The translations under genes were made by a program, and so were the position numbers. The notes under the pieces are model-generated. The model had not been told where the DNA came from. It worked only from the letters and a program-made list of their open reading frames with translations, and did not search any database. Shown piece after piece: positions 50,348-51,730 of a stretch of 64,000 nt of DNA. Within the stretch, counting starts at the first letter, position 1. Each line of letters opens with the position of its first letter. Origin of the DNA: Fimbriimonadaceae bacterium (lineage in GTDB: Bacteria; Armatimonadota; UBA10988); NCBI GenBank assembly GCA_020850355.1, contig JADZEX010000026.1, positions 72,110-136,109 on the forward strand, read 5' to 3'.

Positions 50348-51730
50348 CTAGCCGATTGCAGCCGGCGACTCGGCGGCCCGGACCAAGGTCCGCAAGACTG
50401 CCAGCAACAGCAGCTCGTCGGCCGCCACCAGCAGCGTCAACGGCAGGCCGCAGCCGGCCGCGACGACCGCCAGCAGACCGCTGGTCCAAACTGCCTGACT
50501 CAGCTTGGAGTCCCGCACCAAGGCTTCGCGGGCGGCCTGCCAGGCGACCGGCAGGACCTCCGGCCGGGTCAGCAGCAGCGGCTCCGCGGTCGGCGCGCTG
50601 GCGGCCGGGTCGAGTCCCAGCCACTGCACGCCCCGCACTCCGTATTCGACGCCAGGCGGTGCGAATCCGATCACCGGACCTGCGAGTCCGTGATCGATCA
50701 CCTCGTCGGTCGGGCTGCCGACGGGTCCGATGACCTGTCCCAGGCGGAGTTGCCGCCGGAGCGCAGCGAGGTCTTGCGGGTCGCCGTCGGTCAGCATCGC
50801 AGTGCTTCCGACGCCGCTGCGGCGGATCGCTGTGGCCACCGTCTCGGCGCCCGGCAGCGGCGTCGCGGTCAGCGGCAGACAGCCCACCAGCGCGCCGTCA
50901 CGGAGCAGCCAGAGCGGTTCCTGGTCGGCGGCGGGGGCGGCCTGCGGCGGCGCGGTCAGCCCGTGGCGGCTCAGCAGACTCCCGCCACCCAGTTCGTACG
51001 ACTGCTCCTGGAACGTGCCGCGTCGACCGACCAGCGGTTGCAGCAGCGCGTCGGCGAGGTTCGGCAGCGCCAGGCGTTGGGCCCGCGCCGCCGCCACCAC
51101 CGCAGCGGCCAGCGGCGTGCTCTCTGGCCGCAGCAGCGCGGCCGCGATTCGGAGCACGTCCTGTGGGCGCAGGTCGGCGGCGAGCGCCTGCGGCTCGCCG
51201 CACTGCAGTTCGCCGCTGAGCAGCCCGCGGTGGGCAACCAACAAGCTCTTGGCGGCCCACAACTGCGCCAGCAGCCGCGGCCAGGGCGGCACGCCCCAGG
51301 CCTGCTCGACGCGCGCTGCGGCGGCCGGCCAGGTCAGTCGTTGGACTGCCCGAAAGGCGGTCGGGTGGGCCAGCACCAGCAGCCCCAGGCCGGCTGTGGC
51401 CGGCAACAGGTCGGGGCGCAGGTAGCCTGCCGTGCCGGCCAGCACCGCCAGCGAGGCCAGCAGCCAGGGGTAGGTCCGCGCGCCGTCGGTGCTGCGCAGG
51501 CGGCTCAGGTCGGGTTGTTGCCGGCGCAGGTCAAGCTCCCGGCTGCCGGCCCCGGCGCAGCGCGCGACCAGCGCGGCTTCGCAGAGCCAGCCCGGCAGCA
51601 GCACCAGCAGCGCCCCGAGGCTGGCCCAGGCGGGCTGCCCGAGGCGCCACGCGAGGAGCGCGGCGAGGGTTACCAGAAAGGCGCGCAGCGGCGCTTGTAC
51701 GGCCATCGGCGTCGTTCGATCCAGCCCCAT
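50348..51730 (-). CDS. P1B-type-ATPase-like membrane pseudo-ATPase (catalytic motifs replaced)
   Basis: LVLAHPTAF (vs ACPCAL), SLLVAHRGLLSGE (vs VFDKTGTLTEG), VLRIAAALLRPESTPLAAAVVAAA (vs SEHPLA), MLTDGDPQDLAALRRQL (vs LTGDN..TA), GFAPPGVEYGVRGVQWLGL (vs GDGINDAPAL), C-terminal TM pair. Confidence 0.7.
   Translation of the reverse strand: MGLDRTTPMAVQAPLRAFLVTLAALLAWRLGQPAWASLGALLVLLPGWLCEAALVARCAGAGSRELDLRRQQPDLSRLRSTDGARTYPWLLASLAVLAGTAGYLRPDLLPATAGLGLLVLAHPTAFRAVQRLTWPAAAARVEQAWGVPPWPRLLAQLWAAKSLLVAHRGLLSGELQCGEPQALAADLRPQDVLRIAAALLRPESTPLAAAVVAAARAQRLALPNLADALLQPLVGRRGTFQEQSYELGGGSLLSRHGLTAPPQAAPAADQEPLWLLRDGALVGCLPLTATPLPGAETVATAIRRSGVGSTAMLTDGDPQDLAALRRQLRLGQVIGPVGSPTDEVIDHGLAGPVIGFAPPGVEYGVRGVQWLGLDPAASAPTAEPLLLTRPEVLPVAWQAAREALVRDSKLSQAVWTSGLLAVVAAGCGLPLTLLVAADELLLLAVLRTLVRAAESPAAIG

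Follow-up and report, generated by a model that had tools for sequence, protein, structure and literature searches.

A gene in a draft genome of the phylum Armatimonadota encodes a 460-residue membrane protein that retains the outline of a P1B-type heavy-metal ATPase and none of its catalytic motifs. With moderate confidence, we regard this protein as a P1B ATPase descendant that neither pumps nor hydrolyses ATP and that probably has a regulatory or scaffolding role. Motif-less relatives were found in two further genomes of the same class. Three alternatives are considered below, in decreasing order of plausibility: sensing by a residual metal site, slow decay, and non-canonical transport.

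The gene and its genomic setting

The window (the whole stretch of DNA analysed, 64,000 nucleotides) lies on contig 27 of a draft genome of 6.67 Mb, which comprises 117 contigs, is 95% complete and has a G+C content of 72%. The gene occupies a minus-strand ORF that runs from an ATG at 51730 to 50348 without a single internal stop (Table 1). The original prediction had described an uninterrupted frame of 460 aa, and this holds at the exact coordinates. The G+C content of its three codon positions (0.805/0.562/0.872) is like that of the neighbouring genes on the same strand. Long antisense ORFs are typical of this genome, given as 72% G+C, and ORF length alone is weak evidence there. Two such ORFs on the plus strand, 50690-51811 (373 aa) and 51860-53785 (641 aa), face real genes.

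The gene sits between a glycosyltransferase gene and an SLH-domain gene, inside a polysaccharide-type cluster. The minus-strand genes of 47292-59771 encode two heparinase II/III-like proteins, the SLH protein, the glycosyltransferase, a WbuC-type cupin and a DegT aminotransferase; this region is a probable surface-polysaccharide cluster. A search of the source genome for catalytically intact paralogues, which had been proposed as a check, revealed five P1B ATPases whose catalytic motifs are intact. Nothing ties these five, which could be partners, to the gene described here.

Table 1 Features of the gene and of its immediate surroundings (positions in the window)
Feature	Coordinates	Strand	Basis or remark
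Whole gene: P1B-ATPase-derived 460-aa membrane protein without catalytic motifs	50348..51730	-	ATG 51730, alternative ATG 51706
First TM pair, residues 9-59	51554..51706	-	Aligns with M1-M2; helices from low-confidence part of the model
Linker, about residues 60-82, RELDLRRQQPDLSRLRSTD, at the place of the A domain and TGE	51485..51553	-	Alignment
Second TM pair, residues 82-145	51296..51487	-	Aligns with M3-M4
HPT, residues 122-124, at the CPC metal-binding position	51359..51367	-	Column alignment
Phosphorylation site: AHRGL for DKTGT, residues 166-170, with Ala instead of the catalytic Asp	51221..51235	-	Column alignment
N-domain relic, residues 183-300, best-conserved part	50831..51184	-	Alignment; model pLDDT about 84-98
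Later half of the P domain, eroded (about residues 305-390)	50561..50818	-	TGD replaced by TDG; GDGxND unrecognisable
C-terminal TM pair, residues 392-454	50369..50557	-	Aligns with M5-M6
ADELLLL, residues 437-443	50402..50422	-	Also in the G001 relative
Downstream neighbour: SLH-domain protein	49622..50269	-	Pfam SLH 8.7e-24; context only
Upstream neighbour: family-2 glycosyltransferase	51779..54379	-	Pfam Glyco_trans_2_3 1.5e-7; context only

Descent from P1B ATPases

A Pfam search with the window protein gave no match above threshold. The NCBIfam model TIGR01525 (heavy-metal P-type ATPase) matches residues 175-322 with E=3.3e-7; the score is 29.5 bits against a curated cut-off of 346, which is thus not reached, and against 524-595 bits for the intact paralogues. 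The protein scores far below every curated cut-off of the P1B families.

In a comparison with hhalign, a two-sequence profile built from the window protein and the relative in genome G001 aligns with 54 intact P1B ATPases at 99.5% probability (E=1.3e-22), placing window residues 86-460 onto M3-M6. The window sequence alone reaches a probability of 98.0 (E=2.4e-13), against 0.1-0.7% for 20 shuffled sequences and 0.2% for the reversed sequence. The best NCBIfam match of the G001 protein (P0003) is PRK11033, a Zn/Cd/Pb ATPase (residues 156-460, 2.8e-15), and this protein also matches ZntA of PDB entry 4umv over 141-461. Judged by these sequence comparisons, the window protein is a descendant of a P1B ATPase, beyond chance. 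The proposal that the gene encodes a membrane pseudo-ATPase of P1B descent is supported by the 99.5% hhalign match and by the motif-less relatives in two other genomes.

In a phylogenetic tree the window protein has that of G001 as its sister (support 99/92); the branches are very long, at 4.3 and 3.7 changes per site. Placement of the family within P1B-1, P1B-2 or P1B-4 from the tree was dropped because the branches are too long for it.

Relatives in the phylum

Searches covered first 61 genomes and then, with a profile, 292 genomes of Armatimonadota. Among the 292 there are three strong members: the window gene and one gene each in G001 (contig JACRKZ010000021.1, an Armatimonadetes MAG) and G004. 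G001 belongs to the same family as the window genome and to another genus, G004 to the same order and another family; all three fall in one class of Armatimonadota. The three members have profile E-values of at most 1e-121, and the next match stands at 4e-27; the scores of the three are high by construction, as the profile was made from them. Intact motifs are present at the next-best loci sampled. All three members come from draft genomes, and the G004 gene ends at a contig edge, so that its TGD and GDGxND regions are unseen.

The refuting outcome, an intact DKTGT in the homologues, did not occur: those of the same group lack it as well. This position reads AHRGL in the window protein, CESGV in G001 and EGAGV in G004; the HP position reads TP, AA and EP, respectively, and CPx is absent from both relatives. 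Neither the window protein nor that of G001 has an A domain; the G004 protein does, with KGT in place of TGE. The G004 protein (P0004) aligns with an intact CopA-like ATPase over residues 5-607 (2.6e-54), matches Pfam E1-E2_ATPase, i.e., the A domain (1.9e-22), and has two N-terminal HMA-like stretches without CxxC. Since it retains the A domain together with dead motifs, it looks like a stage before A-domain loss. The window and G001 proteins share 33% identity (BLAST).

The gene order is glmS-sfsA-pseudo-ATPase in G001, where the ATG of the last gene lies 1 nt past the sfsA stop, and glmS-thiD-sfsA-pseudo-ATPase in G004. In the window genome glmS-sfsA is on a different contig, without a pseudo-ATPase gene. 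No stable partner is indicated, because the neighbours differ in the window genome. No family member was found in the assemblies of G002 (72% complete) and G003 (80% complete); the glmS-sfsA locus is assembled in G002, and there is no pseudo-ATPase gene beside sfsA there.

A scan of a genome contig collection with the single protein gave no match, and a profile scan of the same collection returned only the G001 record JACRKZ010000021.1 and an intact ATPase of Enterorhabdus. No member was found in 201 genomes near that Enterorhabdus, which says little. The family appears to be restricted to a small group of uncultured Armatimonadota.

Loss of motifs and domains

We judged the motif columns against 35 intact ATPases, in which the replaced positions are nearly all at least 90% conserved. 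The window protein keeps none of DKTGT, TGE, CPC, HP, TGD and GDGxND in a column-by-column alignment. The earlier reading of CPC as HPT, DKTGT as AHRGL and HP as TP was borne out in this way. That TGD is replaced also stands (its G and D have become D and G); the proposed equation of GDGxND with APPGVEYG does not, residues 340-382 being too eroded for a trustworthy register. In the N-domain relic the ATP-site Glu and the first Gly of GxG are both replaced by Leu, in addition to the loss of HP. The Lys of PxxK has become Glu. At the columns with at least 90% conservation, what the two complete members (window and G001) retain is mostly structural Gly, Pro, Ala and Leu; neither has a full catalytic motif, and the ATP-site Glu and the His of HP are gone from both.

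The domain order recognised in the original prediction can be confirmed. The protein shares with P1B ATPases such as ZntA (P1B-2) and CopA (P1B-1) the succession of M1-M2, M3-M4, start of the P domain, N domain, end of the P domain and M5-M6, as well as N-domain sequence and the M6 Asp. Unlike them, it lacks, in addition to the six motifs, the A domain, the N-terminal HMA domains and both leading helices (MA and MB). The outright absence of the A and HMA domains was missed in the original prediction. The linker in place of the A domain, about 25 residues long, has a similar counterpart in the G001 relative, RALDDLARVRGID.

Structure models

A model built from the window and G001 proteins alone had a pLDDT of 36 and was not used for a fold search. 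The alignment for a second model took in the 35 intact ATPases, 34 from viral contigs and one from Enterorhabdus. The overall pLDDT of this model is 71; confidence is high in the N-domain relic and low at residues 26-81 and 340-382. Its best PDB matches are ZntA (4umw, E 2.3e-12) and CopA (1.8e-11), with a TM-score of about 0.43 and with intact homologues in the underlying alignment. These best matches are of the expected kind; since the alignment contained intact homologues, the model is a consistency check and no independent proof.

A possible residual metal site

The protein could be a metal-binding sensor or a passive site in which H122, D438 and E439 signal or buffer metal without pumping; we consider this unlikely, and still the best placed of the alternatives. 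D438 and E439 are common to both complete members, and D438 falls in a column of M6 where 18 of the 35 intact P1B ATPases have Asp. The best NCBIfam match of the G001 protein is a Zn/Cd/Pb ATPase, and the top PDB match of the model is ZntA. Through the retained M6 Asp, a metal role may therefore be possible. The idea is weakened by the loss of CPC and of every CxxC ligand, after which only the ZntA-like D438 and a His at the first Cys of CPC remain. Moreover, H122 does not align reliably with the His of the G001 relative, and neither in the window nor in G001 does a metal regulator or other metal gene adjoin the pseudo-ATPase gene.

Coding constraint and possible decay

Where BLAST aligns the window gene with that of G001, identity at second codon positions is 57%, with 26% expected (z 12.8); at third positions, which are nearly saturated, it is 47%, with 39% expected (z 2.8). 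The same test on a MAFFT pairwise alignment was dropped: after codon shuffling, done as a control, identity was still 30% and the excess almost as large. Because this control showed the MAFFT alignment to be too permissive, its 35% identity should be read as the 33% of BLAST. The frames are open and the protein sequence is under constraint. Part of the constraint between the window and G001 genes could predate the catalytic loss.

The gene might instead be a functionless P1B relic in slow decay, still open since DNA of high G+C has few stops. We rank this below metal sensing and think it improbable. The very long branches, the loss domain by domain and the patchy occurrence are what decay would leave. 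Open frames are also cheap here, as the long antisense ORFs illustrate. At this base composition only about 6 stops are expected in 460 random codons, and the chance of none is 0.0017. Against decay, however, frames are open in three separate lineages, for which the chances of no stop in a random frame, roughly estimated from base composition, are 0.0017, 0.0003 and 4.5e-7. The G+C content by codon position is as in a real gene, second codon positions are conserved with third positions nearly saturated, and derived features of the linker and of the last TM helix are shared. The shared loss of the A domain, the similar linker and the common last-helix sequence suggest that inactivation preceded the split of the window and G001 species.

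Proposed function

The transport cycle of P-type ATPases depends on an Asp that is phosphorylated, on TGE and on the ligands of Mg and phosphate. Since all of these are lost, the E1-E2 cycle is impossible by established P-type ATPase enzymology. Related species keep an unbroken membrane protein, so it probably has a job other than pumping. We therefore return to a non-pumping, non-hydrolytic protein with a regulatory or scaffolding role. It would be kept for binding a partner, with six TMs as its anchor and a cytoplasmic module that resembles the N domain, and it could regulate or scaffold an envelope or transport complex without hydrolysing ATP or moving metal. An intact P1B pump or an envelope-biogenesis protein would be a candidate partner. 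The metal sensor, chaperone and regulatory subunit suggested in the original prediction are candidate roles. As to the order of losses, inactivation would most likely have come first (the stage seen in G004) and A-domain loss after it.

More tentatively, the three genes may represent a bacterial family in its own right, made up of P1B pseudo-ATPases that arose by stepwise conversion of a metal pump into a membrane regulator or sensor, through loss first of the motifs and then of the A and metal-binding domains. Its N-domain-like module would bind a new partner or ligand and control an intact pump or envelope assembly. This fuller scenario is possible, and we hold it with less confidence than the general reading.

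Relation to known systems

Pseudoenzymes of many classes serve as regulators. To our knowledge, hardly any pseudoenzyme is accepted in the P-type ATPase superfamily; the best known, human TMEM94 (ERMA), is disputed and, as far as we know, not P1B-derived. Our searches of open-access papers turned up no described family of bacterial P1B pseudo-ATPases. Descent from P-type ATPases, loss of the catalytic motifs and an open frame across lineages, the three marks of a P-type pseudo-ATPase, were observed together in three genomes. The nearest described idea appears to be TMEM94/ERMA, and the new element would be a bacterial pseudoenzyme derived from P1B ATPases.

TMEM94/ERMA is a P-type-ATPase-like protein in which TGES is missing and GDGxND replaced, and its status as an enzyme is disputed (PMC12134183, PMC13322241). 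It resembles the window protein in the loss of catalytic motifs from a P-type-ATPase-like membrane protein. It differs in being eukaryotic, in having ten TMs and A-, P- and N-like domains, and in keeping the Asp (DKQGI). KdpB and other complex-forming P-type ATPases have the P-type fold in common with the window protein and are among the fold matches of the model. KdpB, unlike the window protein, is catalytic, and no partners resembling KdpA, KdpC or KdpF were seen in the neighbourhood of the pseudo-ATPase gene.

TMEM94 also provides the precedent for a diverged yet active transporter with a non-canonical mechanism, since one group reported it to be active despite the loss of TGES and GDGxND (PMC13322241). 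For the window protein we consider such activity very improbable. In TMEM94 the key Asp is still there (DKQGI, PMC13322241), as is an A-like domain (PMC12134183), whereas this Asp is Ala in the window protein or Cys in G001, and the A domain is absent; the activity of TMEM94 is itself disputed (PMC12134183). A sequencing or assembly artefact masking an intact ATPase can practically be dismissed: all source genomes are drafts, but intact DKTG, GDGxND, CPC, TGE or TGDN occur in no frame of either strand at 49000-54500, and the same losses recur in two further genomes.

One bacterial class seemingly preserves both an early stage of conversion (full domains, dead motifs) and a late one (A domain gone), a claim limited by the small number of members (n=3). 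With two stages in one class, it becomes possible to ask what the P-type ATPase fold does without its cycle.

Additional observations

A KdsC-like HAD phosphatase gene has lost DxD in G001 and G003, which belong to one genus: GVEGG and GLEGG stand for DVDGV (10529 to about 11100, minus strand, in G001:C184; 7630-8346 in G003; loci L095 and L109). Intact orthologues are L110 (6918-7529, G000:C104), L112 (7747-8370, G002) and L111 (7370-7930, G004). The DxD-less gene of G001, a second apparent pseudo-HAD, lies directly downstream of the pseudo-ATPase gene. It was ruled out as a linked partner, as the HAD gene is not adjacent to the pseudo-ATPase gene in the window genome.

Three genomes have P1B ATPases that combine intact motifs with a long C-terminal extension: L034 (G000:C60), L059 (G002:C82) and L062 (G004:C479). 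The extension of L034 is a Band 7/SPFH domain (4.4e-17) that matches HflK (4.3e-45), and a fusion of P1B ATPase and HflK seems to be typical of the class.
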